Positions 76 through 63,201 of a DNA stretch of 64,000 nucleotides are shown in pieces (positions within the stretch are counted from its first letter, which is position 1; the number at the start of each line of letters is the position of its first letter). The notes below the pieces were generated by a model, which saw nothing but the letters and a program-made list of their open reading frames with translations, was not told where the DNA came from and did not search any database. The stretch covers positions 1 through 64,000 of the forward strand of contig JAHDBN010000005.1 of assembly GCA_020630335.1 (NCBI GenBank), written 5' to 3'. Made by a program: the position numbers and the translations under genes. Origin of the DNA: Bacteriovoracaceae bacterium (GTDB lineage Bacteria; Bdellovibrionota; Bacteriovoracia; Bacteriovoracales; Bacteriovoracaceae).

Positions 76-645
76 TCAATAAATATTGAGTAAGTATTTT
101 TCCATAAATAATGAACTTAGAATGTAATCTTCAGGTGAATTACCTTTTTCCTCTTGAGGTATATTACCATTGAAATATTTAAGCCAAAAATCATAATTCT
201 TAGTAAAATCCATATTTTTTAAACTCGGCTGTGAAACTCCTAAAGCATTAAAGATCAGATAGATTAATTCAGAACAATATATTTCTTCACTTCCCCACTT
301 GAATTGAGAATCGTATTTTTTACCTAATAGTGGTATTAGAACTTTCTTTATCGATTTTCCTGACAGCTCTTGATTAATATGCCTTAAAACTAATAGTTCT
401 GACCCTTTAGTTGATTTGGAAGAAAGTTCTTTAAAGCTTACTAATCTAACTGTTTCAAAAGCTTCAGCTACTAAAATTGGATTTATTGATATTACTATTC
501 CTATATGAGAATAATTTGAATCTTCTTCTGTTTCGATTGCTTTACAGGCATAGCAATTTAAAGATTGTAGTAGGAGATCTCCAACCTTCAATTCTACTCC
601 ATAGAGAAAGCTCGAATAAAAAAAAATCATGAGGAGGTTTTTCAT
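76..645 (-). CDS. YiiX/YebB-like permuted papain-fold (NlpC/P60-type) secreted protein
   Basis: The 189-aa product starts with a short hydrophobic signal (residues 1-17) and then shows the signature of the YiiX (DUF830) permuted NlpC/P60 group: GDLLLQ at 22-27, SHIGIV with a conserved His47, VAEAF at 59-63, a KYDSQF block near 110-115, and YCSELIY with the candidate nucleophile Cys124. Members of the group are thought to be cell-envelope amidases or thioesterases acting on lipid or peptide substrates; the substrate here is unknown. The gene stands alone between the tRNA and a 405-bp gap and is divergent from the next operon. A GAGG block precedes the start at a good distance. Confidence 0.75.
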   Translation of the reverse strand: MKNLLMIFFYSSFLYGVELKVGDLLLQSLNCYACKAIETEEDSNYSHIGIVISINPILVAEAFETVRLVSFKELSSKSTKGSELLVLRHINQELSGKSIKKVLIPLLGKKYDSQFKWGSEEIYCSELIYLIFNALGVSQPSLKNMDFTKNYDFWLKYFNGNIPQEEKGNSPEDYILSSLFMEKYLLNIY

Positions 646-1050: not shown

Positions 1051-2307
1051 ATGTTAGCAAACTTAGACCTCCCAGGGTCAAATCTTCAATATTTAACAAT
1101 AGCTATAAGCTCTATTACGAGTTTGTTGTTATGTTTGGGACTTTTTAATTCTAAGAAAGAAATTCCGGGGCATAAGAGTTTAGTACTTTTTTTATTTGCA
1201 ATGGCAATCGCAAATGGTTTTCGAATTATAAGTTGGGTTGAGGGGCATGTAATCATCATTACTATCAGTTACATGGCATTTATTTTTGTTCCAATTTTTC
1301 TCGTCATCTTCCTAGAAGAGGCATTACGTCAAATGCTTCATCCTCTTGTAAAAATTATCCTCTTGATTACTTGTATTAGCTTACTTTTGACACTGCTTTT
1401 TAGTGATTATTCATCAAATAGAATTTGGAAATTTATTTATATCATCTATTTACAATATTCAGCAATATTGATTATGTCTTTATCCTTTAGAGGTATAAGG
1501 AAAACAGAATGTAATAATGAGAGATCCGTTTATACAAGTGTTTTTTTTACAGGAATTCTATGTGTTGTGTTTGTTGGGATTGATTTGTTAAGTGTTTATA
1601 TTCAAGGGATTAATTTGAGGTTAAGTGCTGTTGGCGTACTGGCCTTGAATTATTTTTTGGCTTCTATTCTTCTTTCAAGTGGAAGTTACAAGTTTCGCAA
1701 GCATATTAGGGTTCTGGCAATGATGATTGTTAGTAGTTTTATTATATCAGTTTTTTTAGTTATTGGTTTTTTTGATAAAATGAACTTAGACCTTATAAGT
1801 GAAATTGCTCTTGTTATTCTTTCTTGTGAAATACCTTTGTATATAGTTGATAAGCTTTTTGGAATAACTGCATCTACTACGGGGAGTGATACTCTAAAAA
1901 GATTAAATAAACTGAATATGAATTCAATTAAAAGTTTACTCCAAGGGATTTCTAATTGGGATGAAGTTAAAAGGTTTCATCTTCTTAGTAATGAATACCT
2001 TAAAGAAAAAGATCTTGAATTCATTTTTAGAGAACAGGAATTAATAGATTATGAAAATATCGTATTGACCAAAAAGATAATTAGTAGAAAGTTTAAGAAT
2101 GAAACTAGCAACTTAATTAAAGGTTTAAATCATGTATTGCTGCTAACGGATTGTGATTACCTTATTGTTTTACCAAGTAGTAGAGAAGTTTTAGTAGCTT
2201 CCTTTTCTAATATGATGAATAAGCAATACTTTAAGGATATTGTTCTTTTTATTAAAAGAGAGATCGTTTCTTTAAACTCAAGATCTCAAGAGGTTCAGTA
2301 TGAATAA
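1051..2307 (+). CDS. multi-pass membrane protein, first gene of ThiF/GNAT/nitroreductase operon
   Basis: I place the start at ATG 1051 because GAGAGG (1041-1046) is an ideal ribosome binding site; a TTG 96 nt upstream would add a doubtful N-terminus. The 418-aa product has eight or nine hydrophobic segments across about residues 12-260, then a charged cytoplasmic part of roughly 150 residues. That tail contains a stretch like a small sensor domain (CDYLIVLPSSREVLVASF) but no histidine-kinase, cyclase or GGDEF motifs. The layout resembles the membrane sensor half of 7TM receptor kinases, so a sensing or lipid-handling role is possible. The gene overlaps the next by 8 nt, so they are translationally coupled. 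Family not recognised. Confidence 0.7.
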   Translation: MLANLDLPGSNLQYLTIAISSITSLLLCLGLFNSKKEIPGHKSLVLFLFAMAIANGFRIISWVEGHVIIITISYMAFIFVPIFLVIFLEEALRQMLHPLVKIILLITCISLLLTLLFSDYSSNRIWKFIYIIYLQYSAILIMSLSFRGIRKTECNNERSVYTSVFFTGILCVVFVGIDLLSVYIQGINLRLSAVGVLALNYFLASILLSSGSYKFRKHIRVLAMMIVSSFIISVFLVIGFFDKMNLDLISEIALVILSCEIPLYIVDKLFGITASTTGSDTLKRLNKLNMNSIKSLLQGISNWDEVKRFHLLSNEYLKEKDLEFIFREQELIDYENIVLTKKIISRKFKNETSNLIKGLNHVLLLTDCDYLIVLPSSREVLVASFSNMMNKQYFKDIVLFIKREIVSLNSRSQEVQYE

Positions 2308-3274
2308 CCTAAAATCTAAGCTCCAGAGATTGGCTATTAAAATCAGTCATATGTCTTTTACTCTACCTATCGGTTCTTTGAAATATAGAGTTGTTGAATG
2401 TCCGGGATTATGGGCTACAGATGCTTATTTAAAAAAATTAACCAATGATCTAGTAGAAGTTGCGAGGAATTGCCAAGGAGAGAAGGAAATCCCTCTTTAT
2501 GGAGTATTAAAAGGGGAAAGAGAAGATTTGTCCAAGCGACTTATAACAATTGCCTATAATAGAAAAACTGGAAAACCAGTCGGGTTTTCCGCACAAATAT
2601 ACTTAGATCTTAAAGATTATGCTTTCTCTCAAAGAGTACTTCATCTTGGGCTTATTTATGTTGATAAAACTGCACAAGGTAAAAACGTATCTTACCTCCT
2701 TGCTGTTTTCCCAAATATTTTAATTCTACTGAAAAATATATTCCGAGATATATGGGTTTCAAATGTTTCACAAGTTCCAGCTGTTTGTGGCTTAGTTGCG
2801 CAGAATTATTACAATGTTTACCCGAATGTCGATGGAACAAGACAAACATTTCATCATAGAAAAATTGGAGAGTTGATTTTTGAAAATCATAAAAGTGCTT
2901 TTGGAGTTGGAGAAGATGCTTCTTATGATTCGAAACGACAAGTTATATCTAATGCTTATACCGGCGGGTCAGATAATTTAAAAAAATCTTTTAATGATTC
3001 GCCTAAACATCGAGATCCTAGAATTAATAAGATGTGTTCTGATGAATTAAACTATGAAAGAGGAGATGATTTCTTACAGCTTGGTGTTTTATCTGCTAAA
3101 GCTATAAGTGATCTTTACAAAAAAAAACTAAAGGCCTCCAAGGCCTTAACTATAACATTCTCTTTGATTGTTATTACAGTATGGGCGGTTTTTATTCCTC
3201 TCATTCGTTGGGTCTTAGAAAAACCAAGAAAAGAAAAAATTAATAGAGATTTAAAAACAAAAGTAGTGTGGTAA
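2300..3274 (+). CDS. GNAT-fold acyltransferase with C-terminal membrane anchor (possibly FeeM-like)
   Basis: The 324-aa protein has a GNAT-like core at about residues 30-190: the strand and loop LGLIYVDKTAQGKNVSYLL is in the place of the acyl-CoA binding motif A, followed by NVSQVPAVCGLVAQNYYNVYP where GNATs carry motif B. N-acyl amino-acid synthases of the FeeM type and autoinducer synthases share this variant fold, so an acyl-ACP or long-chain acyl-CoA donor is plausible but not shown. A single hydrophobic helix near residues 280-303 with basic flanks would tether it to the inner membrane. It overlaps both neighbours by a few bases. Function is inferred from fold and context only. Confidence 0.6.
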   Translation: MNNLKSKLQRLAIKISHMSFTLPIGSLKYRVVECPGLWATDAYLKKLTNDLVEVARNCQGEKEIPLYGVLKGEREDLSKRLITIAYNRKTGKPVGFSAQIYLDLKDYAFSQRVLHLGLIYVDKTAQGKNVSYLLAVFPNILILLKNIFRDIWVSNVSQVPAVCGLVAQNYYNVYPNVDGTRQTFHHRKIGELIFENHKSAFGVGEDASYDSKRQVISNAYTGGSDNLKKSFNDSPKHRDPRINKMCSDELNYERGDDFLQLGVLSAKAISDLYKKKLKASKALTITFSLIVITVWAVFIPLIRWVLEKPRKEKINRDLKTKVVW

Positions 3275-4146
3275 TGAAATTTAATTATGATGAATTTATA
3301 ACTCGTAATATTGGATTTGTATCCAAGAAGGAACAGAATCTAATTAAAGAGGCAAGGGTTTTTGTTGCCGGAGCAGGTGGAATGGGGGGAGCTGCGATTG
3401 CTTGTCTCGCTAGAATGGGTGTTGAGAATTTTATCATTGCTGATTTAGACGAGTTTGAAGTTTCCAATCTTAATAGACAGATCTTTGCAAATCTTAATAC
3501 AGTTGGAAAAGACAAGGCTCTTCAGACTAAAGAAGCCTTATTAAATATAAATCCTAATGTTCAAATAGAGCTTCATGATCATAGTTGGGTTGAGAAGTTA
3601 GAAGAGATTCTAACTCGAATAGATGTTGTTGTTAATGGATGTGATGACACTAGAGCGACGTTAATACTTATGAGAATGGCTGCGAAGTTTAAAGTTACTG
3701 TGATTGATGCTTTTGCTTCAACTCTTCCAAGTGTTTATAGTATTCAACCTAATGACAAAAGACCTGAGGAGATAATGAATTATCCTTCTATTGGTAGAGC
3801 AATTGAAACGTTGTCAGATGAAGAACTAGATTTATGTGCCAAAAGGGAAATTGAATATGTCATGATTCATTCATCTACAGCGAAACATGTAATCTTGGAT
3901 ATTGCAGCTGAAATGGTTAGTGGGAAAAGATCCCGGATTTCTTTTGCTCCAATGGTTTGGATGACAGGATGTTTAATGGCATTTGAAGTGACAAAAGTTA
4001 TTTTAGGAAAAGAAAAACTTGCAAGCGCTAGGGGAGTTTTTATCAATCCATGGTCATTTAAGATTGAAAAACCCATTAATTCAATCTTTGCTTTCTTTAA
4101 AGGGATTGCTGTGAGAACTTTCTTAAACAGATTAATGAAGGATTAA
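3274..4146 (+). CDS. ThiF/MoeB/E1-family adenylating enzyme
   Basis: A Rossmann ATP-binding loop GAGGMG sits at residues 33-38, then ADLDEFEVSNLNRQ (about 56-69) with the Arg that contacts ATP phosphates, a Lys in GKDKALQTKE, and VVNGCDDTRAT with the acidic residues typical of E1-like enzymes. These enzymes adenylate a C-terminal carboxylate. The two zinc CxxC pairs of MoeB and ThiF are absent, and no ubiquitin-like partner ending in GG is encoded nearby. I prefer ATG 3274, which overlaps the previous stop as TAATG, over an in-frame GTG at 3268. The combination of ThiF with a nitroreductase recalls the fused mycobacterial Rv1355c (MoeY) type. Substrate unknown. Confidence 0.85.
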   Translation: MKFNYDEFITRNIGFVSKKEQNLIKEARVFVAGAGGMGGAAIACLARMGVENFIIADLDEFEVSNLNRQIFANLNTVGKDKALQTKEALLNINPNVQIELHDHSWVEKLEEILTRIDVVVNGCDDTRATLILMRMAAKFKVTVIDAFASTLPSVYSIQPNDKRPEEIMNYPSIGRAIETLSDEELDLCAKREIEYVMIHSSTAKHVILDIAAEMVSGKRSRISFAPMVWMTGCLMAFEVTKVILGKEKLASARGVFINPWSFKIEKPINSIFAFFKGIAVRTFLNRLMKD

Positions 4147-4148
4147 CT

Positions 4149-5255
4149 ATGTATATTAAAGAAAAACCATCATTTAATGACTTCTTTAATGTTACAAAGA
4201 ATGTCTATGGAGATAATTCCAGCTATGTGTCTTTGTTTAAAGATGATTTGAAACGTTTCTTATCATTAAAAAACCCTCTTTTTAATAAATATGGTAGAGG
4301 AACTTACTTTGTTGCTTTTAAGGATAATATACCTGTAGGAAGAATTAGTGCTCATATTCATGATAAATCAAATGAAGTACATAATGAAAAAGTAGGATAC
4401 TTTGGATACTTTGAATCAATTAATGATCTAGATGTTGCAAAAGCACTTTTGAATCATGCAGAAGAATGGCTTAGAGAAAAAGGTATAAATAAAATTAAAG
4501 GAAATTTTAATCTTACGGCCATGCAACAAATAGGAGTCATGACTTCTGGGTTTGAAAACTATCATTATACCGATCAGGTTTATGGATCAAAGCATTTACC
4601 TTTAATGTTAGAAGAAAATGGTTATTCGAAAATTTTCCCAATGAGTACTTTTGAACTTGAACTTTCAGGTTTTGATGAGACACAACTTCTTAAAGAAAAA
4701 GTTCAATCAGTCTTAAATAATAATGATTATGAGTTTGTTACTTTAAAGAAAAAAAAGATAAAAGCTCAGATGGATTTAGTAAGACATGTTCTGAATGATG
4801 GATTTCAAGATAACCCTATGTTTGTTTCTTTAACTAATGAAGAGTTTGAATTTCAAGCAAAGGATATGATGTGGATTATTGATGAGAAAATTTCTTCTCT
4901 AGTCACTTATAAAGGAAAACCTGTGGGGACAGTAGTTTGTATCCCAGATCTGAATGACTTTCTTAAAAGTACAAAGTCACAATTTAGCTTGGGAACAATT
5001 TTCAAGTTCATAAGGCATAAGTTTAAGCGAGATAAAGCTGTTATTATTTTTTACTCTGTTACTAAAGATTTTCATGGGCAGGGAATTAACCCCGCCATGC
5101 TTTACCAAGTTATTACTGTTTTGAAACTAAGAGGATATAAGAAATTAGGTTTTACCTGGATTGCAGATGTTAATAAGTCGAGCTTGCGTCAGATGGAAAA
5201 GTTGGGAGCTAAGAAGCTCCATGGACTTCATTTATACGAGAAGGTTTTATCATGA
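4149..5255 (+). CDS. YghO-like protein with two GNAT acetyltransferase domains
   Basis: The 368-aa protein reads as two GNAT-like halves. The N-terminal half (about 1-170) includes VGRISAHIH and GYFGYFESINDLDVAKALL; the C-terminal half (about 190-368) includes PVGTVVCIPDLND, an acyl-CoA loop around FHGQGINPAMLYQV, and a closing IADVNKSSLRQMEKLGAKK segment where motif B lies. This length and layout match the YghO group of uncharacterised proteins. It starts 2 nt after the ThiF-like gene and overlaps the nitroreductase gene by 4 nt (ATGA), so all are in one transcript. It probably transfers an acyl group in the same pathway; the substrate is unknown. Confidence 0.8.
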   Translation: MYIKEKPSFNDFFNVTKNVYGDNSSYVSLFKDDLKRFLSLKNPLFNKYGRGTYFVAFKDNIPVGRISAHIHDKSNEVHNEKVGYFGYFESINDLDVAKALLNHAEEWLREKGINKIKGNFNLTAMQQIGVMTSGFENYHYTDQVYGSKHLPLMLEENGYSKIFPMSTFELELSGFDETQLLKEKVQSVLNNNDYEFVTLKKKKIKAQMDLVRHVLNDGFQDNPMFVSLTNEEFEFQAKDMMWIIDEKISSLVTYKGKPVGTVVCIPDLNDFLKSTKSQFSLGTIFKFIRHKFKRDKAVIIFYSVTKDFHGQGINPAMLYQVITVLKLRGYKKLGFTWIADVNKSSLRQMEKLGAKKLHGLHLYEKVLS

Positions 5256-6229
5256 TCAATCAGTATGAATTTAAATCAATTATCCAAAGAGTAAGTTTGT
5301 CTCCAACAGCTCATAATACTCAGCCTTTTAGGTGGGGTCTTAATAATAACATTATAAAAATGACTATTGATTCAAAAAGAAAACTGCCGATTGCCGATCC
5401 TAGTGATCATGATCTTTGGATCTCTGCAGGATGTATAGGGCTTGGGCTAAAAATAGAACTTAACGACAGGGGGCTGAAGGTTTCAGATATAAAAATAGAA
5501 GAAGATGGCATCACTTATGTCGTTAGTGAAGAGTCAGAATTAAATCACGAAATGAGAGATTTGAGTGCCTCGGTAGAGAAGCGCTATTGTCACCGAGATA
5601 TTTATAAAAAAAAGACGAGCTTTGATAAGAATGATTTAAGTGTTTTAGATTCTAAAAACTCTTCTTTTATCAAAGACTCTAAAGTTATTAAAAAGATTGC
5701 CAAGGCTCATGACAAATCTACTTACTTCTTTTTGAAGAAAGAAGAGTATTTTAAAGAACTGTGTATGTGGCTAAGACTAAGGCAAAAATCTGAAAATTAT
5801 CATTGGGATGGTATAAATCTTTGCTCCATGGGATTTAATTTTTTAGAAAAATTTTTCGCAAAATATGTTATGTCACCCAAAGTATTTTCTTTTCTTAAAA
5901 TGATATCTTTAGGAGAAGTGATAACTGCAGAAGCTTCAAAGGTTGCAACATCATCCGGTCTCATGGCCATTCATATAGATACTGAAGCTTCAAACTTAGA
6001 GGCTGGAGAGGTTTTTTATAAGAAATGGTTAGAGATGACTGCTTTAGGTTATACGGGAAGTCCATTATCGACTCTAATTGATCATCCTAAATATAATAAA
6101 AAATGTCGAGAGTGGTTTAATATTCCTAGCAACCATAAACTCATAAACATATTAAAAGTTGGGCCAACTGATCTTTTAAATCAACCTAAAAGATGTCGGC
6201 TTCCCATTGAAAAGATAATAGAGGATTAA
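5252..6229 (+). CDS. Acg-family nitroreductase-fold flavoprotein
   Basis: The 325-aa product begins with SPTAHNTQPFRW (residues 17-28), the FMN-binding signature of the Acg (Rv2032) branch of nitroreductases, followed by ADPSDHDLWISAGCIGLGL and RYCHRDIYKK, which match the two half-sites and helical lid of that branch. Such proteins bind FMN; several Acg members are thought to store flavin instead of acting as reductases. In azol(in)e peptide pathways an E1-like protein and an FMN oxidoreductase work together, and Rv1355c fuses ThiF with a nitroreductase, so the neighbourhood suggests oxidation of a product built by the ThiF-like and GNAT enzymes. That link is inference. Start overlaps the previous stop (ATGA). 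Confidence 0.8.
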   Translation: MINQYEFKSIIQRVSLSPTAHNTQPFRWGLNNNIIKMTIDSKRKLPIADPSDHDLWISAGCIGLGLKIELNDRGLKVSDIKIEEDGITYVVSEESELNHEMRDLSASVEKRYCHRDIYKKKTSFDKNDLSVLDSKNSSFIKDSKVIKKIAKAHDKSTYFFLKKEEYFKELCMWLRLRQKSENYHWDGINLCSMGFNFLEKFFAKYVMSPKVFSFLKMISLGEVITAEASKVATSSGLMAIHIDTEASNLEAGEVFYKKWLEMTALGYTGSPLSTLIDHPKYNKKCREWFNIPSNHKLINILKVGPTDLLNQPKRCRLPIEKIIED

Positions 6230-7888
6230 ATGAAAAAACTTTTTTTGCTTGTATTGTTAATTTTTTTAGGAACCTCTTGTTTGAAAGGAAAACCGGAGTT
6301 TGTAAGTAGTAATATAGATAGAGCTACAACAGATGAACAAAAAGGTGCAATTTATTTTTTACAAAGTGATTTTGGTGCTTTGAGACAGCACGGAATGAAA
6401 TCAAATATTTTGCCTTTTAAAATAGCTAATGCAGCGATTCTCATGATGAAAGGACATGATCCAGATAAAGAGAATAGCAGGCGTGCATTGAATAGAATGT
6501 ATCGAAGTTATGGTCTTTTGGTAGATGCCAATGTCGCTAATTTACCTTTGGGTACCACTATGAAAAAAAGTGAGTATCTTGGATTATTTAAAGGGAAGTT
6601 AAGTAGTGCTAGATCAAAACATGTTCCTCGGTTGGAAACAGAAGGAAGTGGGTTTTCTTGCGTTGCTTGTCATGGGGGCTTAAGTTACGATCCTACAGGT
6701 AAGCCCTTAGTGAATAAAGTTTATCTTGGAGTGCCTAATACCTCACTTAATATTGAAAAGTATACGAATGATGTCTATAAAGGATTTCTTAAAATCGTTG
6801 ACAAAAAAAAGGAGTTTCTCTCTTATTTAAAAAAAGTTTTTCCTGAGATGTCTAAAAGAGAATATCGAACAGTCAAAATGATTTTTAAAAAAGAAATCGT
6901 AAAAAAAGTTTTATCTTTAAAGAAAAATCTCGATAGGCAATCTCCTGCTTCCAATGGAGGTGCTGGTTTAACAAATGGTGTTGCGGCCCTGAAATTTCAA
7001 TTAGGATTAATTTCTAATAAACATAATGAAGAAAATGAGACAGGCTTTACATCAATTCCAGCGATTTTTGATAGAAATTTTAGATCTAGTTTATTATATG
7101 ATGGGCTTTATGAACCTTTGGTTTTTGTGGATAACAAAGATTTAGCAAACTCTACTGAGCATATTGACCAATTAGCCAGAATAACAACATTTTTTACTGT
7201 CCCATCTTCTGCTAATAAAATATCAGTTGCTCAACATCATTTCGATAAAAGTAAAAAAATTTTTCAATACTTAAAGACCGCTAAAAGACCTAAATTCCCA
7301 GGAAGAATAGATTATAATATTGCGAAGCATGGTGAGAAAATATTTTTAAACAAATGTAGCTCTTGTCATGGGGTGTATTCAAGTCTTGATAATAACTTAA
7401 CTCCCAAACTTGTTTCTTTTCCAAATAAATTTGTAGAATACTCTGAAATTGGAACAGATGCTTCCCGCTTAGATGTTATTGATAATCAACTCGTTGAAAC
7501 GATCAATGACTCTCTTATGGGGAAGTACCTAAATGCTGTAAAAAGAGATGGTTATATTGCTCCTATTTTAACGAATTTATGGATTACAGCACCTTATCTT
7601 CACAATGGATCCGTTCCTACTTTATGGGGAATGATGAATCCGGATCAAAGGCCCAAAAAGTTTTTAGTCGGAGGTCATGCACTTGATATGAATAAGGTAG
7701 GTGTTTTATCCACTGTATCTAATGTAGATAAATCGAGTACTTATAAAAATAACTATATTCCGTGGGCATCTCCTGAAATGTACAATACGGAATTAGAAGG
7801 ACGATCTAATAAGGGGCATGAAAAACCATTTGATCTAATGACTAGAAAAGAAAAATTAGATTTAATTGAGTATTTAAAAACAATCTGA
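6230..7888 (+). CDS. diheme c-type cytochrome lipoprotein, cytochrome c peroxidase / RoxA-like
   Basis: The 552-aa product has a lipoprotein signal ending in LGTSC, so it should be membrane-attached on the periplasmic side. It carries two heme c sites, CVACH at 144-148 and CSSCH at 376-380, the spacing expected for the diheme peroxidase superfamily. The block APYLHNGSVPTLWGMM near residue 460 matches the conserved segment of these enzymes and of rubber oxygenase RoxA, and KFLVGGHALD follows it. It could be a peroxidase, an oxygenase, or an electron acceptor for the upstream flavoprotein. It begins directly after the previous stop and ends the operon. Confidence 0.75.
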   Translation: MKKLFLLVLLIFLGTSCLKGKPEFVSSNIDRATTDEQKGAIYFLQSDFGALRQHGMKSNILPFKIANAAILMMKGHDPDKENSRRALNRMYRSYGLLVDANVANLPLGTTMKKSEYLGLFKGKLSSARSKHVPRLETEGSGFSCVACHGGLSYDPTGKPLVNKVYLGVPNTSLNIEKYTNDVYKGFLKIVDKKKEFLSYLKKVFPEMSKREYRTVKMIFKKEIVKKVLSLKKNLDRQSPASNGGAGLTNGVAALKFQLGLISNKHNEENETGFTSIPAIFDRNFRSSLLYDGLYEPLVFVDNKDLANSTEHIDQLARITTFFTVPSSANKISVAQHHFDKSKKIFQYLKTAKRPKFPGRIDYNIAKHGEKIFLNKCSSCHGVYSSLDNNLTPKLVSFPNKFVEYSEIGTDASRLDVIDNQLVETINDSLMGKYLNAVKRDGYIAPILTNLWITAPYLHNGSVPTLWGMMNPDQRPKKFLVGGHALDMNKVGVLSTVSNVDKSSTYKNNYIPWASPEMYNTELEGRSNKGHEKPFDLMTRKEKLDLIEYLKTI

Positions 7889-7909: not shown

Positions 7910-10063
7910 CTATTTCTTTCTTAAAGAACTAAATAGTACAATATCACCAAACCAACCCAAGAAGAATCCAGCGATCATAAGATAGGATATTTTTCCTAAC
8001 CCATTAAAATCAGAGAATAGAAAAATCATAGCGATCATGCTCATGATGATCAGAGAGACAAAAGAAGCCTCTTGTATGCTTTTTGATTCGAGATCTCCGC
8101 AATGATGAATCAATACATCCCCTGAAAGTCCAATGAGAATAGAAAGAACTATACTTGTGGCGAAATATATTCCTATATCATTTATTAATAGTAGTGAGAG
8201 TAAAACGAAAGGCCCCCAAAGAGAGCACAATAATACTAACAATTTATAATTTATCTTTCTTTGAAATAATATTAATAAAAGAAAGACAGAGATTAATACA
8301 AGAGAGAACTTAAAGCTTGAAACTAAAGTTTTTAATACTCTGATACCGAATTCACTATAAGAAATTAAAACACTAATTAAGTGACATTTTTTTTGACAAA
8401 CTTTATCAACATGTTTCTTGAGTGAAGATATGTCATTTATATCTGATGAGTCCGAATAGATTAATGCTCTTTCTTTGGAAGATATGGGAGATATCCAGCG
8501 TGCAGATGAAGAATGATTATTCATTGCTTTCTTCATTGCTTCTTTATGTTTCCCTTCTAAATTTTTAGTTAAGTAATCTTTTACTTCATCAAAACTTTCA
8601 TAATGCTTAATAAAAGAAAAATTATCCTGGATTTGATTTAGGAGCCTGTGTCGTTCGCTTTGATCGATCTTTTTATCAAAAACTAAAGAGATTTCTGCTA
8701 ACCAATCTCGTGAATCATTCAAGTACTGAGCGGATTCATAAAGTATATGATCTTTGTTAAATAATCTTTCAGGAGAATCTTCAATACGAAGGTTTATCTT
8801 TGAAAGAGATAAAAAAATAAAAGGGCTGCATACAATTATAATGGCAATGGTTTTAGGAAATTTAAAGTTGGATATCCTTTGTATAAAAGAAGTAAACCTT
8901 AGATCTGAAACTATATGTTTTCTAAATCTCAAAATTATTTTAGGCATAATCAAAAATGATACCACCCATTCTATTATTGCTGCTATTGCACAAATAATAC
9001 CGAACCTTCTTATTGCTCCAAGATCTGAAACAGCTAAAGAGCCAAAACCAATAGCCGTGGTTAGACTTGTCATAAAACTTGGAAAGATTTTGGCCTTAAA
9101 AGCATTAATATAATCATTTTCATAGTGCTCTAGTTTATAAATATAGAAGATAAGATCCTGAATCGTGGCCATTAAAAGCATTAAAGGAATTGCAGAGGTC
9201 AGCAGGTCAATAGGAACATGGAAAAGACTCATGATACCGTAAACTGGAATTAAGCTTAGCATATAACTTATAATCAAAAAAACTAACCAATAAAGAGAGA
9301 TACCAAAAAAGTAAAAGACTAATAAAAAGATGGGGAATATAAATAGGTTGAGTACATTCATCTTCTTATAACCCTGCTTTAAAAAATACTTATAACTTCC
9401 ACCTCCGACCCAATAGGTTTCTAAGTTATCTATTTGATTTTTCAGAGAATTTTCAATACTTTTTTTTATTTTAGAAAATGATTTTTCATTGAAACTCCCG
9501 AAGATATCTTCATCTTTTTTATCAAGAGGTCTCAAGTAAAAACTTACAAAGATATCATCTAGTTTTTTATTCGTAAGTAAATGACCAGATGGAGAGTTGG
9601 CTATTAATTGTAACTGATTGCTTATTTCGGAATTAGAATTTTCAATTGTACAATCAGGGATTAAAATGGGATGAACTTTTAAATCTTTTCCTTCTTTCTT
9701 AGCCATTTTTAAGCCATAACTAGAATAGATTCGAGTAAACTCATAGCTTTTTACTTGAATAGAGTTTATCCAATCAAGAATTAAGCAATGCTCTTGAAAA
9801 CTAAATTTATCTTTTTTTCTAAGAATAACTGAAACTTGATCTTTTTCGTCATAATTTTTTTCTAACTCATGTAGAGCATTATAAGTTTTAAAATCAGCAT
9901 CTATTAGATCACTAATATCAATTAATTGTCTTAGCTCTTTTAACTGAAGAAAAGAAGCAAGAAGTATGAAGAAATATACAGTGAAAAATACTTTGTAGTG
10001 AGAGATAGATAAATTAAAGAGTTTAATTAATAAGCTCTTTAATTTATCTAAAAAATTATTCAC
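7910..10063 (-). CDS. RND-superfamily (MMPL/HpnN-like) exporter
   Basis: The 717-aa protein has the RND layout: one N-terminal helix, a periplasmic loop of about 200 residues, a five-helix bundle near residues 230-380, a second helix and large loop, and a second five-helix bundle near 570-715. Segments such as IPLMLLMATIQDLIFYIYKLEHY and SILIGLSGDVLIHHCGD hold the acidic and polar residues in the place of the proton relay. This size fits the MMPL and HpnN-type lipid exporters, not the larger AcrB pumps. It lies 4 nt after an upstream lipoprotein gene, in the same operon, and converges on the cytochrome operon. A role in exporting that operon's product is plausible. Confidence 0.8.
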   Translation of the reverse strand: MNNFLDKLKSLLIKLFNLSISHYKVFFTVYFFILLASFLQLKELRQLIDISDLIDADFKTYNALHELEKNYDEKDQVSVILRKKDKFSFQEHCLILDWINSIQVKSYEFTRIYSSYGLKMAKKEGKDLKVHPILIPDCTIENSNSEISNQLQLIANSPSGHLLTNKKLDDIFVSFYLRPLDKKDEDIFGSFNEKSFSKIKKSIENSLKNQIDNLETYWVGGGSYKYFLKQGYKKMNVLNLFIFPIFLLVFYFFGISLYWLVFLIISYMLSLIPVYGIMSLFHVPIDLLTSAIPLMLLMATIQDLIFYIYKLEHYENDYINAFKAKIFPSFMTSLTTAIGFGSLAVSDLGAIRRFGIICAIAAIIEWVVSFLIMPKIILRFRKHIVSDLRFTSFIQRISNFKFPKTIAIIIVCSPFIFLSLSKINLRIEDSPERLFNKDHILYESAQYLNDSRDWLAEISLVFDKKIDQSERHRLLNQIQDNFSFIKHYESFDEVKDYLTKNLEGKHKEAMKKAMNNHSSSARWISPISSKERALIYSDSSDINDISSLKKHVDKVCQKKCHLISVLISYSEFGIRVLKTLVSSFKFSLVLISVFLLLILFQRKINYKLLVLLCSLWGPFVLLSLLLINDIGIYFATSIVLSILIGLSGDVLIHHCGDLESKSIQEASFVSLIIMSMIAMIFLFSDFNGLGKISYLMIAGFFLGWFGDIVLFSSLRKK

Positions 10064-10066
10064 AAG

Positions 10067-11560
10067 TTAAAATAAAACTGAACTTAATGTAGCACCCATA
10101 ATTGTTCCTCCCCATATTTGGGATAGAATTCTAGCTGAGTTTCGAACACCTTTTTCGTCTTTTGCATCTGGAAAGTATTTTGTATAAAAAGAATAATTCC
10201 ATGCATTTGGATTTCCATAATCATAATTTCTATAAAATCTGCCAGTTATAGGGTCTTTTAGTTCTTTATCATCAGATTTAGATAATATTTTTCTAACATT
10301 AGGAACATTAAATCCAGTGGCTAAGAAGTTTTTAAAATCACTTGGAGGAGACTCAAATAAGTCTTTAAATTTTACTTGTACAGTTTCTCCTTGAATAATT
10401 GTACTAGAAACTTTTTGTCCATCCATTAAATCATCAAGGTTATCAAATCCATTACCAATAATACGATTAAAAGGCATGAAGCTTCTTACATCAAATAAAG
10501 GAAAGCTTTGAAACTCTTGTTTTGAATCGCTAGCTTTTATAAACTCCCACGCTTGCTTGGAGTAGTCTAAAGCACAATCGAGATCATCATACGCACTCTT
10601 AGTATAACTTAATATTTCATCCTTACTAACATCTGAAATTAAATCTCTTCTTTTATAAAGGTCTTTAAACTTAGATTTTTTTGTAATTCTTTCAATTCTC
10701 TTCTTAGCAATCATAGCTCCTTCATTATCAAGTACTGCATGGAAACCATAACTACCGGCAATTGAGCTGATGGCCCTTAAAAGACCTTTCCACGAATAAG
10801 CTAGAGAATACTTTGTAGCAGACAAACTTAGCTTTATTGAAGCAGATAATGATTTAGCAACACCTTTATCAATTGCAACAAATCTATCTTGATCGTCAAT
10901 GATGTTCATCTGTGAATTAAAAAGCAACTTATTATCAAAATAAAATGGTTCGGATTCGGCTAATATCGCAAGTTTTTCAATTCTGTCTGAGTATAATTGA
11001 AGAGCTGGTGTTAATTCATTTTTCACATATAAAAAAAGCTCTTTCTCTGTCTTGATATTAGGAACAACAACCTTATTTTTTTTATCTATAAAATAAGGAA
11101 TAACTGTATAATCAAAGCCAGCTTTCCATTGACCATCAGGATTGAATGAATTAATTCCTGCATTTGTAGCTCTGAGCATTGCAACTAATTGTGAATGTAC
11201 AAATGCTCCGTTCTCAGATTTTTCAATCAAACCCCTTACTCTAGTAATCATACCTCTTAAAGGTTTTAAGGAAACGAGTTGAGCGGCAACCCACTTTGCT
11301 TGAGTAGATAAAGAATCATATTTTTCTTCATATTCTTCTATTAGTTCTGCAAGCTCTACGTGAGTTTTAACAGCTAATATTGCTTTGTTAAGTTCTTGCG
11401 TATCATTAGAAAAAACTTTTGAATAAATAAGCCTATCAGAATTAGCAAGCCTTCTCGTTTTTTTGTGACTAGATTGTTTTTCTTGATTACCGATCTCTTT
11501 ATGTTTAGGCTGACAACCCAAAAACAAAAGACCTGAAATAATAAGCTTTAAAAAATTCAT
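10067..11560 (-). CDS. large lipoprotein of unknown function
   Basis: The 497-aa product starts with a lipoprotein signal (ISGLLFLGC) and is predicted to be anchored to a membrane. The rest is mixed alpha-helical and hydrophilic, with no motif I recognise. The C-terminus ends in a small residue-rich hydrophobic stretch (IWGGTIMGATLSSVLF) that could be a membrane segment. It is the first gene of a two-gene transcript with the RND exporter 3 nt downstream, so it may be a partner or a substrate-carrying protein of that exporter. A region 11561-11697 upstream holds a plausible promoter, but I could not fix one. Confidence 0.65.
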   Translation of the reverse strand: MNFLKLIISGLLFLGCQPKHKEIGNQEKQSSHKKTRRLANSDRLIYSKVFSNDTQELNKAILAVKTHVELAELIEEYEEKYDSLSTQAKWVAAQLVSLKPLRGMITRVRGLIEKSENGAFVHSQLVAMLRATNAGINSFNPDGQWKAGFDYTVIPYFIDKKNKVVVPNIKTEKELFLYVKNELTPALQLYSDRIEKLAILAESEPFYFDNKLLFNSQMNIIDDQDRFVAIDKGVAKSLSASIKLSLSATKYSLAYSWKGLLRAISSIAGSYGFHAVLDNEGAMIAKKRIERITKKSKFKDLYKRRDLISDVSKDEILSYTKSAYDDLDCALDYSKQAWEFIKASDSKQEFQSFPLFDVRSFMPFNRIIGNGFDNLDDLMDGQKVSSTIIQGETVQVKFKDLFESPPSDFKNFLATGFNVPNVRKILSKSDDKELKDPITGRFYRNYDYGNPNAWNYSFYTKYFPDAKDEKGVRNSARILSQIWGGTIMGATLSSVLF

Positions 11561-47953: not shown

Positions 47954-48346
47954 TTAAAAAGTATGGCTTCTCATGCAAGTATTATTACATGAGCCGAAGA
48001 ATCCAGTAGGACAAGGTTTTACTATTGTACAATAGGCTCTCTTTGGTTGACACCCTGTAGCCAGATTGCAGACGACGGCAGCGACTCCTCCATTCTTAGG
48101 TATACACCCACCAGTACATTTCAAAGATCCTAAAGAAGCACTTCCATCTTCATTGATAACTCGGTAATCTTGTTCTGATACTCTTCTCTCTTGACCATCA
48201 TTTCCTCGTTCAATATAAGTTCTGATACTTCCAACTTCTACTGCTCGACCTTCTTCATAAGCTTTAGCAAGTCTATCGTTTGAGAAAACTTGAATCGATG
48301 TAATTCCAGCGAATAGGACCATCATAAGCAATTTGTTTGTTTTCAT
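47954..48346 (-). CDS. secreted eight-cysteine protein, paralogue 1
   Basis: The 130-aa product has a signal peptide (about 1-22), the family head AYEEGRAVEVGS then ERGNDGQERRVSEQDYRVI, and an eight-cysteine C-terminal part with spacing C-x3-C-x11-C-x5-C-x6-C-x5-C-x7-C-x3-C. All eight cysteines align with the other three full members at 48404, 49095 and 52484. A compact disulfide-bonded domain, exported to the periplasm or beyond, is expected; the family is not one I know. Confidence 0.8.
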   Translation of the reverse strand: MKTNKLLMMVLFAGITSIQVFSNDRLAKAYEEGRAVEVGSIRTYIERGNDGQERRVSEQDYRVINEDGSASLGSLKCTGGCIPKNGGVAAVVCNLATGCQPKRAYCTIVKPCPTGFFGSCNNTCMRSHTF

Positions 48347-48403
48347 AAATTTTTCCTTTTTTAGTGTTTTTAAATCAAAACGAGAAACTGTTCATTTCTA
48401 TAA

Positions 48404-48808
48404 TTAATTAGATATCAGCGAAAAACTTCGACCGCAATCACCAGAACATGCTGGAAGACCAATCCCACTCCAAACATCACCACAGTGAATCGGCGTACAC
48501 TGTCCGCTTACTTCCTTGCATCCAGTAATGTCCCCACAAGTTGGGCCAGAGTGCTTAACGCAATATCCTTTGCATTTCATAGAACCAAATGATGTCACTG
48601 CACCATCTGGAGATACAACTTCATAGTTTTGATGAGAAACCTCTAAGGTTCTATTTTGAGAATCTCTTTCCATGTAAGATTGTTTAGGACCGATCTCTCT
48701 AGCTCTTCCTTCTTTAATTGCTTTAACTAAGTCATCCGGACTCATAGTGCTTTGTGCAAAATTCAAATTAGCGAACAAACATAATAAAACTAAAATACTT
48801 CTTTTCAT
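48404..48808 (-). CDS. secreted eight-cysteine protein, paralogue 2
   Basis: The 134-aa product is nearly identical to the gene at 49095 (about 95% in amino acids) and shares its upstream 160 bp. The signal peptide is about 1-18. It reads SPDDLVKAIKEGRAREIGP, then ERDSQNRTLEVSHQNYEVV SPDG, then eight cysteines with spacing C-x3-C-x7-C-x5-C-x6-C-x4-C-x11-C-x3-C. The pair is a recent duplication. Located 57 bp upstream of the next paralogue on the same strand. Confidence 0.85.
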   Translation of the reverse strand: MKRSILVLLCLFANLNFAQSTMSPDDLVKAIKEGRAREIGPKQSYMERDSQNRTLEVSHQNYEVVSPDGAVTSFGSMKCKGYCVKHSGPTCGDITGCKEVSGQCTPIHCGDVWSGIGLPACSGDCGRSFSLISN

Positions 48809-48942
48809 AAAATTCCTTTTTTTGGGTTGTTAATTACAGCATCAGAGTAAAACATCAGTTCCATTTACTTTGATATACTTAGCAATGATGTGATGAATAA
48901 ATGTTAGTTTTTTGAAAGTTAAATTGCGAGCGAGTAGGAAAT

Positions 48943-48969
48943 AAACTGCGGCATTGTTTGCCACAGTTT
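48943..48969 (-). repeat. hairpin element, copy 1, upstream of paralogue 2
   Basis: In the minus direction AAACTGTGGCA (48969-48959) pairs with TGCCGCAGTTT (48953-48943), 11 bp with one G-U, loop of 5 nt. The same element is at 49653-49679, 27 bases with the same sequence. It was carried along in the duplication. Confidence 0.7.
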
Positions 48970-49020
48970 TAGTAAGTTTCTGATTGTGCAAAAAATAAAA
49001 ATTTTGTTCAGGAAAAAGAT

Positions 49021-49055
49021 AGAGTCTAAAACTTAGAATTTAAACTTTAGACTCT
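49021..49055 (-). terminator. intrinsic terminator after paralogue 3
   Basis: AGAGTCTAAA (49021-49030) pairs perfectly with TTTAGACTCT (49046-49055); read on the minus strand the stem is followed by ATCTTTTTCC. It lies 40 nt past the stop of the gene at 49095. Confidence 0.75.
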
Positions 49056-49094
49056 TTTGTTTTCAAATTAAAATAAACTAGAAATTGTTAATCT

Positions 49095-49505
49095 TTATAA
49101 TGAATGAGACATTAAGGAGAAGCTTCTACCGCAATCACCTGAACATGCTGGAAGACCAATCCCACTCCAAACATCACCACAGTGAATCGGCGTACACTGT
49201 CCACTTACTTCCTTGCATCCAGTAATGTCCCCACAGGTTGGGCCAGAGTGCTTAGTACAATATCCTTTGCATTTCATAGAACCAAATGATGTCACTGAAC
49301 CATCTGGAGATACAACTTCATAGTTTTGATGAGAAACCTCTAAAGTTCTATTTTGAGAATCTCTTTCCATGTAAGATTGCTTAGGACCGATCTCTCTAGC
49401 TCTTCCTTCTTTAATTGCTCTAACTAAATCATCTGGGCTCATAGTGCTTTGCGCGAAATTTAAATTAGAGAATAAACATAACAAAATTAAAATACTTCTT
49501 TTCAT
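49095..49505 (-). CDS. secreted eight-cysteine protein, paralogue 3
   Basis: The 136-aa product is a near-copy of paralogue 2, with a few substitutions (for example S for A after SPDG, T for V after KGYC). It has the signal peptide and all eight cysteines. The start is preceded by GGAAGGAGAAG. It is the first gene after the 728-aa secreted-protein gene in the minus direction, and has its own terminator at 49021. Confidence 0.85.
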   Translation of the reverse strand: MKRSILILLCLFSNLNFAQSTMSPDDLVRAIKEGRAREIGPKQSYMERDSQNRTLEVSHQNYEVVSPDGSVTSFGSMKCKGYCTKHSGPTCGDITGCKEVSGQCTPIHCGDVWSGIGLPACSGDCGRSFSLMSHSL

Positions 49506-52483: not shown

Positions 52484-52879
52484 ATGAAAAAAGTATTAAC
52501 GTTGATGATCTTACTCTCAGGATTTAGTTTTGCAAGTCCATCGCTGAGTCCCCAAGAATTAGAACGAGCTATTGAAGAAGGTCGTGCAATAAAAATTGGT
52601 CCTCAGAAAGACCATCTTGAGCATGATGCGGAAGGCAGAACTGTTAAAGTTTCTAGTCAAGATTACCGCATCACATCTCCTGATGGAAGTTCTATTACGA
52701 ATGGTTCACTTACTTGTTCGGGGATATGCAGGGGAGCTCTTTGGACAGGTATGGTGTGTGGAAATACAGAAAATTGTGAACCAAGAAGGGCTTATTGTAC
52801 AAAAGGCAAGTGCCCTGGTCCTGCTAATGGTCCTGGCGCATGTATTCCGGAGTGCAACAGAGCATTTACAACGAAGTAA
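52484..52879 (+). CDS. secreted eight-cysteine protein, paralogue 4
   Basis: The 131-aa product has a signal peptide (about 1-17), SPQELERAIEEGRAIKIGP, EHDAEGRTVKVSSQDYRI, SPDGSS, and eight cysteines with spacing C-x3-C-x9-C-x5-C-x6-C-x4-C-x9-C-x3-C. It is on the opposite strand to the other three members, and 53 nt after the lipoprotein cousin, so the two are likely co-transcribed. AAGGAG is the ribosome site. Confidence 0.8.
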   Translation: MKKVLTLMILLSGFSFASPSLSPQELERAIEEGRAIKIGPQKDHLEHDAEGRTVKVSSQDYRITSPDGSSITNGSLTCSGICRGALWTGMVCGNTENCEPRRAYCTKGKCPGPANGPGACIPECNRAFTTK

Positions 52880-60249: not shown

Positions 60250-60646
60250 CTAGTTCCCCTTATCGATATTGTATGCAAACTCTAGTAAGTGGTAATCTTT
60301 TTACATTACTCTTCTTATCGTCAACTCACTTTCTATCTTTAATATTTATTACTACAGCGCGATTTTGTCGTATGAAGTTTACACAGGGAATTTGACGGTC
60401 ACAGCGCATCAATTATCAATAATCAATAGTTTAACTATCAATTATTGGGAGGATGCAAAAGGTGATTATTATGATTTCAATCTTATTTTTTCATCAAGAA
60501 ATAAGAATCCTTAGGGGCTAGTATTTAACAAAAGTATTAAGATCTTCCTTGATATAAGTTAATGCTTGATAAATCTCTTTATGATAAATTTTTCAGTATA
60601 AAGTGATTTAGAGTAATTTGAAGGGGAATGATTAAGCTTGAATTCA
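60250..60646. other. 397-bp intergenic region with repeat copy 2
   Basis: The first part holds AT-rich, partly self-complementary sequence (CAATAATCAATAG near 60417-60450) without a clear terminator. The last 130 bp are the repeat copy 2, the natural leader of the epimerase gene. Confidence 0.4.
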
Positions 60647-60659
60647 ATGAAAAAACATA
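60518..60659 (+). repeat. direct repeat copy 2 (functional epimerase 5' region)
   Basis: The matching copy of 59149-59290; it runs into the epimerase start codon and its first four codons. Confidence 0.9.
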
Positions 60660-61666
60660 AAGTACTTATAACTGGAGCTAATGGATTTATAGCTAGCCAC
60701 CTTGTAGAGAAGTTACAAGAAAGTAATAGCTTTGAAGTTTTTCTGACATCACGATCTTCGTTGAAACGCAGAAACTTTCCGCCTAAGAATTTCATTCAAG
60801 CAGACATAAGCAGTAAGGAAGATATTAGTAAAATCTTAGAGGGGATCGAAGAGATTGATACCGTAGTTCATCTTGCAGGAAGGACAGGATTGTCTAATAT
60901 TAAAAAGAAGTTCCAAAAAATAAATGTAGATGGAACACAAAATATTGTTGAGATAGCTCAGAAACTTAGTTGCAAAAATTTTATATTCATCTCAAGTCCA
61001 AGTGTTTATTTGAGTTCTCAAAATAAAAAAGAAATAAAAGAAGATGATATACCTGCTCGATTTTTAACACATTATGCTGAGTCGAAATTTAATGCGGAAC
61101 AATTTTTAATGCTAAACAATTCTTTGAACTTTCAAAAGATGATTATATTGAGACCAGGTACGGTGTTCGGACCAGGCAATTTAGTTTTACTAAATACTAT
61201 AAAAAATTTAATAAAAAAAAGAACATTACTAGTTTTAAAGAAACCTGAAGCGAGTACGAGTGTAACTGGAATACAAAATATGGTTTATGCTATTTTAGTT
61301 TCCATTAAGTCCAACCTGAAAGGGAACCATGTGTTTAATATCGCAAATAAAGAAGAAGTTCAGATGAGTGGATTATTTAGAAGAATTTTAGAGAGAAGGA
61401 AAGTGCCGTTTAAAGAAGTATATCTTCCATTTGCTTTATTATTTTATCCCTTAAAGGTTTTGTCGTGGGTGAAAAGTTTTTTGAGAATAGATGATGAATC
61501 TGTACTGCATCCCTATATTGCATGCAACTTAGGAAGAGATAAGACGCTTTCTATAGCGAAAGCGTCTAAAGAATTAGGGTATGAGCCTTCTTTTACACTT
61601 GAGAGTGAATTTGAAGTGTTTTTAGAGTGGTTAGATAAAAGGATTGATTCCAATGAGCTTTCTTAA
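60647..61666 (+). CDS. NAD-dependent epimerase/dehydratase (extended SDR)
   Basis: From ATG 60647 the 339-aa product begins MKKHKVLITGANGFIASHL, with the GxxGxxG loop, then VHLAGRTG, SSPSVY, and HYAESKFNAEQ (YxxxK), RPGTVFGPG. It is a sugar- or sterol-type extended SDR. TTG 60638 lies at a better distance from GAAGGGGAA (60620-60628) than the ATG, so it could also be the true start. It overlaps the GH3 gene by 14 nt. Confidence 0.85.
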   Translation: MKKHKVLITGANGFIASHLVEKLQESNSFEVFLTSRSSLKRRNFPPKNFIQADISSKEDISKILEGIEEIDTVVHLAGRTGLSNIKKKFQKINVDGTQNIVEIAQKLSCKNFIFISSPSVYLSSQNKKEIKEDDIPARFLTHYAESKFNAEQFLMLNNSLNFQKMIILRPGTVFGPGNLVLLNTIKNLIKKRTLLVLKKPEASTSVTGIQNMVYAILVSIKSNLKGNHVFNIANKEEVQMSGLFRRILERRKVPFKEVYLPFALLFYPLKVLSWVKSFLRIDDESVLHPYIACNLGRDKTLSIAKASKELGYEPSFTLESEFEVFLEWLDKRIDSNELS

Positions 61667-63194
61667 CTCTTGCTTGAAGTGGGGAACGAGGTTGCAAGCA
61701 AAAAAGTTTGAATCTAGTTGTCGGAATATTGAAGAGGTTTTTAAAAAGAATTGGGAAAAGACAATCTCTACTCTCATTTTTGATGATTCCTATTGGGGCA
61801 AGAAAGGTTATTCAAGAAAGTCGAAATTAGAAGATTTTCCCATTTCAAATTATGAGCAGTACGAAAAAGTTATTCAAGAAAGTATGAGAACTGGAATAAG
61901 CAAGCTTAATAATGAAAAAATTCTTTTTGCGGCAATGACTTCAGGAACAAATGGAACAATGAAGCCGTTTTTAATTACTAATAAATATAAGAAGCAATAT
62001 CAATTAGTTACTGGACCGACTGTTCATTATCTCACTAAAAAATATGATATAGGAAAAGGGAAGTTTTTGTATTTAATTAGTTTAAGCTCTGCTAGTTTTA
62101 TAAAAGCAAACGTACGAACTGGGACTATTGGTAATTTTACATATAAAACATTACCTTTTTATTTAAAGTTTTTTTACTCTATACCATTTCATGTTTTTAC
62201 TTCAAAAGAGAAGTTTAAAAAGTATGCTTATCACTACGCTGTTGCCGCAGACATGTCAGCGATATTTTCTGTAACCCCACCTATAGCAATTAATTTTTTA
62301 TCTCAAGTTTTTACTCACTTATCTGAAATAATAGATGATTTATTAGATGAGAACTTTATTAAGAAATCTGGGATAGCGCTTTCAAAAGAAAGACGCATAT
62401 TCCTTAAGGAGTTAAAATCTAGCAATAACATTCAAGGGATTGATTTATGGCCTAAACTTCTAACCATGACAACATGGACTACATCTGTGTGCAAACTTTC
62501 TTTACCGAAACTAAAATCTTTATTAAATGAAAAGGTAAAAGTTGTGGATGGGATTTATTCAGCAACGGAAGGGTGGGTAACGGTCCAAAATAATTTGGAT
62601 CAAGAAGGATGTACTTACCATCCAGGAGGAACTCTTTTGGAATTCATACCCGAAGGAGAAGAACTTATCGCTGGAAACATCATAAAACCTTGGGAGTTGG
62701 AAGAAGGGAAATGTTATGAGATTTTATTTACTAATGTAATGGGCCTTGTTCGTTACCGAATCGGAGACGTCGTAAAGTGCAATGGTTTTTTTGCCAGAAG
62801 CCCAATCTTAGTTTTTTCACATAAAACATCGGCTAGTATTTCATTGGGTATTATTCGCTTAAGTGAAGGTGAATTAATAGAAGCTACACTAGGCTTTGTG
62901 AAGAAATTTCAAGACATAAGTTATTTTTTTTCCTTCTCTCAGGATGGATTATCTCTAGGGATTTATTTTTATTGCAAAGATGATAACTATGATAGTAACG
63001 ATTTAAATAACACATTACTTGAAATTGAAGAAAAGTTGCAAGAAATAAGCTTAGATTATAAAAAGGAAAGAGCAAATGGTACAATTAAGCCTTTGCAGTT
63101 TTATAGATTAAAAATTGAAGAAAAGTATTTCGTTACAGACGAAACGGGACAAAGAAAACCTCGCTTGATTATTAATGAGAGAATAGAAATCTAA
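61653..63194 (+). CDS. GH3-family acyl-adenylating enzyme
   Basis: The 513-aa product from ATG 61653 has AAMTSGTNGTMKPF (the GH3 phosphate loop), YSATEGWVTVQNN and LVRYRIGDVVKC, the order of plant-type GH3 acyl-acid-amido synthetases of the ANL superfamily. Such enzymes activate an acyl acid as adenylate and couple it to an amine. Bacterial GH3 proteins are little known. It overlaps the epimerase gene and precedes the acyltransferase gene by 7 nt. Confidence 0.85.
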   Translation: MSFLNSCLKWGTRLQAKKFESSCRNIEEVFKKNWEKTISTLIFDDSYWGKKGYSRKSKLEDFPISNYEQYEKVIQESMRTGISKLNNEKILFAAMTSGTNGTMKPFLITNKYKKQYQLVTGPTVHYLTKKYDIGKGKFLYLISLSSASFIKANVRTGTIGNFTYKTLPFYLKFFYSIPFHVFTSKEKFKKYAYHYAVAADMSAIFSVTPPIAINFLSQVFTHLSEIIDDLLDENFIKKSGIALSKERRIFLKELKSSNNIQGIDLWPKLLTMTTWTTSVCKLSLPKLKSLLNEKVKVVDGIYSATEGWVTVQNNLDQEGCTYHPGGTLLEFIPEGEELIAGNIIKPWELEEGKCYEILFTNVMGLVRYRIGDVVKCNGFFARSPILVFSHKTSASISLGIIRLSEGELIEATLGFVKKFQDISYFFSFSQDGLSLGIYFYCKDDNYDSNDLNNTLLEIEEKLQEISLDYKKERANGTIKPLQFYRLKIEEKYFVTDETGQRKPRLIINERIEI

Positions 63195-63201
63195 ACTAAA
63201 G

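Follow-up and report, generated by a model that had tools for sequence, protein, structure and literature searches.

We analysed a window of 64,000 nucleotides from a Bacteriovoracaceae bacterium (contig JAHDBN010000005.1, positions 1 to 64,000), the whole stretch of DNA considered here. Near its start lie six consecutive open reading frames on the + strand, here called A to F, which overlap or abut with at most 2 nt between neighbours and are bounded on either side by genes on the opposite strand (Table 1). An earlier note, made from the letters alone, had read these six genes as one unit encoding adenylation, acyl transfer and flavin redox chemistry. To compare the operon across lineages, we searched for its gene set in other genomes and related its proteins to families of known chemistry.

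Table 1. The A-F operon and adjoining genes, by position in the window
Feature	Position	Strand	Start or junction	Description
Upstream gene	76-645	-		
A	1051-2307	+	ATG at 1051 behind GAGAGG; alternative upstream TTG at 955 likewise open	membrane protein; 9 predicted transmembrane helices and a C-terminal alpha/beta domain of ~140 aa
B	2300-3274	+	8 nt overlap with A	GNAT-like; C-terminal transmembrane anchor at ~residues 284-302
C	3268-4146	+	overlap with B of 7 nt (GTG start) or 1 nt (ATG at 3274)	ThiF/E1-like adenylating enzyme; PF00899, E 3e-39
D	4149-5255	+	2 nt gap after C	tandem-GNAT N-acyltransferase; two GNAT stretches, PF00583, E 6e-15
E	5252-6229	+	4 nt overlap with D	Acg/nitroreductase-type FMN oxidase (FDO); NF047509, E 4e-28; PRK07877, E 3e-12
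F	6230-7888	+	no gap after E	diheme c-type cytochrome lipoprotein, RoxA/CytoC_perox-like; in part of the clusters
RND transporter	7910-10063	-	convergent to F	HpnN/MmpL-like; TIGR03480, E 1e-8
Protein of ~500 aa	10067-11560	-		usual partner of the RND transporter; RND gene adjoins in 18/30 loci examined

A gene set conserved across phyla

The five genes A to E are a real and widespread functional unit. A search of 369 genomes from the phylum with E matched 19 other genomes, and 13 of these carry the cluster, or a part of it cut by a contig end, in several arrangements. Within the phylum, 13 or more further species from five families have the set, some on partial contigs. The order A-B-C-D-E-F is found in three families (L035, L036, L037) and B-C-A-D-E-F at three other loci (L042, L043, L044), while two more (L039 and L041) have D-E-C, with F and A-B on other strands. 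Gene content has been kept while gene order was shuffled, which speaks for function.

The pattern extends well beyond the phylum. Searching the GTDB genome set with the tandem-GNAT protein D gave 180 relatives, and we examined the loci of the best 80. A to E are complete in 67 of these 80, and F is also present in 23 of the 67. Three further loci lie on contigs only 3-4.5 kb long, and the remaining ten have no B at the D locus, nine of them also lacking A, C and E there. In all eight searched genomes whose D locus has no B, B was found elsewhere in the genome: seven have B-C-A-E as one operon away from D, and the eighth has B-A apart from C-D-E-F. With the missing genes located elsewhere, the five core genes are complete in each of these eight split genomes. 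Thus, the set is conserved together, and the claim of a single unit is confirmed both by the open reading frame coordinates and by conservation across phyla.

The 80 loci span Alpha- and Gammaproteobacteria, Bdellovibrionota, Gemmatimonadota, Acidobacteriota and others. Carriers of D include Bradyrhizobium, Bosea, Ruegeria, Roseibium, Rhizobium, Devosia and Lysobacter, metagenome-assembled genomes of Halomonas and Legionellales, and members of Thermoanaerobaculia, Gemmatimonadales and ANGP1. C and E are unfused in every cluster examined. Members of A to E are currently annotated as hypothetical proteins, 'ThiF family' and 'GNAT family'.

Relatives of the encoded proteins

The AlphaFold2 model of D (pLDDT 88) is a tandem GNAT whose best PDB matches (5kf1, 7q3a and 2wpw) are all tandem GNATs, in line with the earlier description of a double GNAT, which had missed the kinship of D to the N-acyltransferase of ceramide synthesis. 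Translated searches of plasmids recovered YghO of E. coli and its relatives as distant homologues, and the D profile matches YghO over its full length (profile positions 4-368, E 1e-51 to 1e-56). In bacterial dihydroceramide synthesis YghO (aca, CC_1154) serves as the N-acyltransferase that uses acyl-CoA (PMC9386255), and the Caulobacter enzyme of this type has been named bCerS (PMC11087976). D has the same tandem-GNAT length as these enzymes; it differs from them in sequence (24% identity), the D proteins of the operon form a clade of their own (100/100), and none of the six operon genes encodes SPT, AcpR, AasR or CerR. D falls outside the bCerS clade, with no SPT or CerR alongside, and sequence comparison makes it a sister family of YghO/bCerS.

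The seven distant homologues of D that we looked at all sit in lipid-synthesis loci. Six adjoin an SPT-like aminotransferase, mostly together with a reductase gene (E. coli, Pseudomonas, Klebsiella, Rubrobacter, Streptomyces and Acidisoma), and the seventh (Diaphorobacter) has other lipid genes alongside. A second YghO-like protein was found in only two of the 13 operon carriers searched, one of them genome G061. Given the separate clade of D and the lack of a second YghO-like protein in most carriers, D is most likely a lipid-forming N-acyltransferase whose substrate would be something other than a sphingoid base. In G061, which belongs to the window's family, an SPT-like aminotransferase, a bCerS homologue and an NAD-dependent reductase lie together (L239:3962-7356) in what is likely a sphingolipid cluster of this phylum. 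In the genome from which the window comes, there is a second YghO-like open reading frame with an in-frame TAA (G000:C35:37244-38329), possibly a decayed or misassembled ceramide synthase.

For C and E the relevant comparison is with acyl-oxazolone synthesis by OxzAB (Pseudoalteromonas rubra) and by TyzACB and TrzAS (Mycobacterium tuberculosis). There one enzyme N-acylates an amino acid, ring closure is the ATP-dependent work of a ThiF protein, and desaturation, which uses O2, that of an Acg-type flavin oxidase (PMC10404671, PMC12856293). N-acyl dehydrotyrosines are related products (PMC12479983). The physiological role of acyl-oxazolones is an open question, and in acid oxazolones undergo hydrolysis (PMC12856293). 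The earlier note had implied that the gene combination was without chemical precedent, which does not hold: N-acyltransferase, ThiF protein and Acg-like flavin oxidase together are this known chemistry. It had also pointed to the fusion protein Rv1355c and overlooked that Rv1355c is the TrzS of the acyl-oxazolone pathway.

All adenylation and ATP residues of C are retained (R13, GxGGMGG at 35-41, R49, D59, N67, R70, Q71, K83 and D126), and C has R13, GxGGxGG, R49, D59, D61, N67, R70, Q71, K83 and D126 in common with OxzB-like fusions; the aligned C proteins have no invariant Cys. E, whose NF047509 score lies below that model's cut-off, shares the flavin-oxidase residues N22, Q24, R43, R111, R115, W259, G304 and R316 with OxzB-like proteins. 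These adenylation and flavin residues are mostly kept in a TrzS-family protein as well. As references for trees we collected proteins from Gammaproteobacteria with the Rv1355c model, both ThiF-FDO fusions and neighbouring ThiF/FDO pairs, including one true Rv1355c-family protein (L163, 755 bits). These OxzB-like references were chosen by architecture and NCBIfam rather than taken from P. rubra itself. Maximum-likelihood trees placed the C proteins (97/96) and likewise the E proteins (100/100) each in a single group outside the references. Several long reference branches make the deep placement of C and E uncertain; that each group stands apart is stable.

The operon thus resembles the Oxz, Tyz and Trz clusters in encoding an acyltransferase together with an ATP-dependent, ThiF-like cyclase and a flavin oxidase of the Acg type, with the catalytic residues of cyclase and oxidase kept, and in having an RND-type transporter close by, as mmpL9 adjoins tyz (PMC10404671). 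It differs in that C and E are unfused and form separate clades, in the extra, strictly retained A and D, often with F, and in an acyltransferase B that is not recognisably TrzA-like. We do not assign the operon to this family, because C and E lie outside its clades and B has only a weak likeness to FeeM. Clusters for the N-acyl dehydrotyrosines (thalassotalic acids, kyonggic acids and stieleriacines) likewise have genes for an N-acyl amino acid synthase, a ThiF protein and a nitroreductase, sometimes operon-like, and no counterpart of A, D or F is described for them (PMC12479983).

B has GNAT motif A and conserved motifs HLGL.xVDP..R..G.S, YTGGSD.LKK and RGDD.LQ.G, and by hydropathy 10 of 12 B relatives have a hydrophobic C-terminal segment. 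It matches no Pfam or NCBIfam model, Pfam FeeM included, and no PDB entry by sequence. A broad B profile matched FeeM-type GNATs with a probability of 87-92%, over motif A only and with few other GNAT families compared; D, as a control, gave 1%. A direct comparison with a TrzA-like protein gave no match, and we rejected B as a clear homologue of FeeM or OxzA. B therefore appears GNAT-like, with a weak likeness to FeeM that falls short of proof. As bait, B found only stand-alone relatives in near genomes. These have 28-33% identity, lie near positions 8800-10750 of their loci (L009-L014) in six genera of the same family, and are not accompanied by ThiF, FDO or D.

A is the most divergent member of the operon (12-29% identity to the window copy). 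Its AlphaFold2 model has a pLDDT of 82, and the charged residues R58, E89 and K101 are invariant in an alignment of 18 members. No Pfam or NCBIfam model matched A, nor did any PDB entry at E<=0.001, and with nothing significant in Pfam, PDB sequence or Foldseek searches we rejected A as a known receptor or transporter.

F carries a lipobox (LGTSC) and two haem sites (CVACH at 144-148 and CSSCH at 376-380). It matches NF040606 (E 7e-39) and RoxA-like PF21419 (E 3e-18), and its two CxxCH sites and RoxA-like motif liken it to RoxA/RoxB and CytoC_perox; it differs from them in falling short of the curated NF040606 cut-off (134 vs 150 bits) and far short of the RoxA/B/C models. At three loci (L066, L074 and L127) D adjoins F while B-C-A-E lie elsewhere in the genome, a pairing that hints at the D product as the substrate of F.

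Neighbouring genes

In alphaproteobacteria, a PspA/IM30 gene and a TetR regulator lie near 39 of the 80 loci found with D (for example L059, L061, L065, L073 and L075, and L184 on an Ensifer plasmid); many of these are from related genera, so they are not 39 independent events. An Aas-like LplT-PlsC-AMP-ligase fusion lies, likewise in alphaproteobacteria, near 15 of the 80 (examples are L059:3474-6923, L068, L073, L111 and L184:10123-13521). Aas recycles lysophospholipids (see also PMC9386255), and such a neighbour would fit an acyltransferase drawing on phospholipids. The 67 complete loci include 23 with F and 39 with PspA and none with both, so that there seem to be two accessory types of cluster.

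Downstream of F, the RND transporter and its partner of ~500 aa form a pair that recurs in the phylum (also L188-L217) and in one locus sits inside the cluster (L046:4016-7821). A protein of the partner's type is present in 60 of the 369 genomes of the phylum, and the pair is mostly free-standing. We therefore rejected it as a core part, and its linkage is only suggestive of an exporter for the operon product.

Farther along the window (47954-49505 and 52484-52879), four or more paralogues encode small proteins of ~130-136 aa that are secreted and rich in cysteine, two of which (48404-48808 and 49095-49505) are a nearly identical pair. At the window end (60638-63993), an NAD-epimerase, a GH3-like protein (61644-63194) and a hexapeptide-repeat-like acetyltransferase, named by eye from the sequence, follow one another in what could be another small-molecule locus.

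A putative pathway to an acylated amino-acid lipid

Our best reading is that the product would be a fatty-acylated amino-acid lipid, ring-closed and/or desaturated. The operon would most likely follow the scheme of acyl-oxazolone or N-acyl-dehydroamino-acid synthesis, extended by an acylation of the ceramide-synthase type. More specifically, we put at about even chances the proposal that A to E form a membrane-associated pathway to a fatty-acylated, amino-acid-derived lipid, as a distinct variant of acyl-oxazolone biosynthesis. The pathway type finds support in the family matches of C, D and E and the retained catalytic residues of C and E, and the earlier guess of an N-acylated metabolite or modified lipid in the homology of D to YghO and the acyl-oxazolone parallel. 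Also in favour are the co-occurrence of A to E, the lipid-synthesis loci of the distant D homologues, the biochemically demonstrated formation of acyl-oxazolones by N-acyltransferase, ThiF protein and FDO (PMC10404671, PMC12856293), and neighbours with membrane functions (PspA/IM30, LplT-PlsC-AMP-ligase). Taken as a whole, that earlier interpretation had the unit, the pathway type and the product guess right and lacked the oxazolone precedent and the ceramide-synthase kinship of D.

Gene content, co-occurrence, family relations and active-site retention are observed, together with the predicted tandem-GNAT fold of D; we infer every reaction, which amino acid is used, the order of events and what A, B and F do. 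D and/or B would acylate the amine of an amino acid, or of an amino lipid, with long-chain acyl groups. D would take its acyl group from acyl-CoA, like bacterial ceramide synthase, and the membrane-anchored B would either play the part of OxzA/FeeM or add a second chain. C, like TyzB and TrzS, would then adenylate the carboxylate with ATP so that it closes into an azlactone (oxazolone), and E would desaturate the C-alpha/C-beta bond with FMN and O2. A may be the membrane component of the complex (a scaffold, flippase or sensor). Where present, the periplasmic lipoprotein cytochrome F would oxidise the exported product; in clusters without F, PspA and LplT-Aas may handle membrane side effects.

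Several observations weigh against this pathway. Three activities suffice in the known oxazolone clusters, and A and D are additional here. C and E lie in clades of their own, outside the Oxz/Tyz references in both trees. The model closest to E is Acg/Rv3131, and none of its members has a demonstrated part in oxazolone synthesis. Pfam FeeM does not match B, whose likeness to FeeM is weak. Some of these points would suit a different chemistry, in which C is an amide-forming activator rather than a cyclase: it would adenylate an N-acyl amino acid made by B, to which a second amine, carried or acylated by D, would be joined. The resulting membrane lipid would consist of two parts, resemble a lipopeptide and contain a dehydroamino acid but no oxazolone. 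Arguing for this case, two different acyltransferase families are always retained together, C and E stand apart from the oxazolone enzymes, and no oxazolones have been observed for the thalassotalic, kyonggic and stieleriacine families, which carry ThiF and nitroreductase genes (PMC12479983). Counter to this, the ThiF-FDO pairs of known chemistry make oxazolones (PMC10404671, PMC12856293), and the operon has no separate condensing enzyme; we regard amide formation by C as unlikely.

The operon might instead both make and sense a diffusible lipid signal, with B to E producing a molecule like an acyl-homoserine lactone or azlactone and A, with its nine helices and C-terminal, cytosolic domain, acting as receptor or regulator. 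A is as divergent as receptors often are, and one of its 18 members weakly matches 7TMR-DISM (4e-4). Yet an output domain (kinase, cyclase or DNA-binding) is absent, A is strictly retained with the enzymes and it has no significant structural match to a receptor, which makes a signalling role improbable. We give very little weight to C as the E1-like enzyme of a protein-conjugation or anti-phage system, and rejected ubiquitin-like conjugation and CBASS/Bil defence: C does match PADLOC E1-E2 models (4e-14), but only over the common ThiF core, seven other proteins tested have no PADLOC match, the six operon genes include no E2, JAB peptidase or ubiquitin-like gene, and an invariant Cys is lacking in C. 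An azol(in)e pathway of ribosomally synthesised, modified peptides was rejected as well; domain searches found no YcaO in the operon and there is no gap in it for a peptide gene, bearing out what had been noted from the sequence about YcaO, ubiquitin-like proteins and precursor peptides. That A to F are unrelated neighbours by chance is hardly credible: compact gene packing is all that speaks for it, against conservation across phyla in rearranged order and completeness in all eight split genomes.

Returning to the lipid pathway, A to E probably make a lipid nobody has described. The five-gene set is complete across several phyla, including the well-studied Bradyrhizobium, Ruegeria, Bosea and Ensifer, and we found no description of a ThiF/GNAT/nitroreductase/PspA cluster in the literature searched, whose reach largely excluded subscription journals. 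As a wider and rather speculative proposal, to which we lend limited credence, A to E may stand for a widespread unrecognised class of membrane lipid, a two-chain amino-acid lipid made by a membrane complex that would join N-acylation of the ceramide-synthase type, ring closure of the oxazolone type and desaturation, with a role in envelope stress, as the PspA and LplT-Aas neighbours suggest, in rhizobia, roseobacters and Bdellovibrionota. The product of A to E would link two recently found bacterial lipid chemistries, the acyl-oxazolones and the ceramides, and genetically tractable, non-pathogenic carriers could serve to ask what such lipids do.

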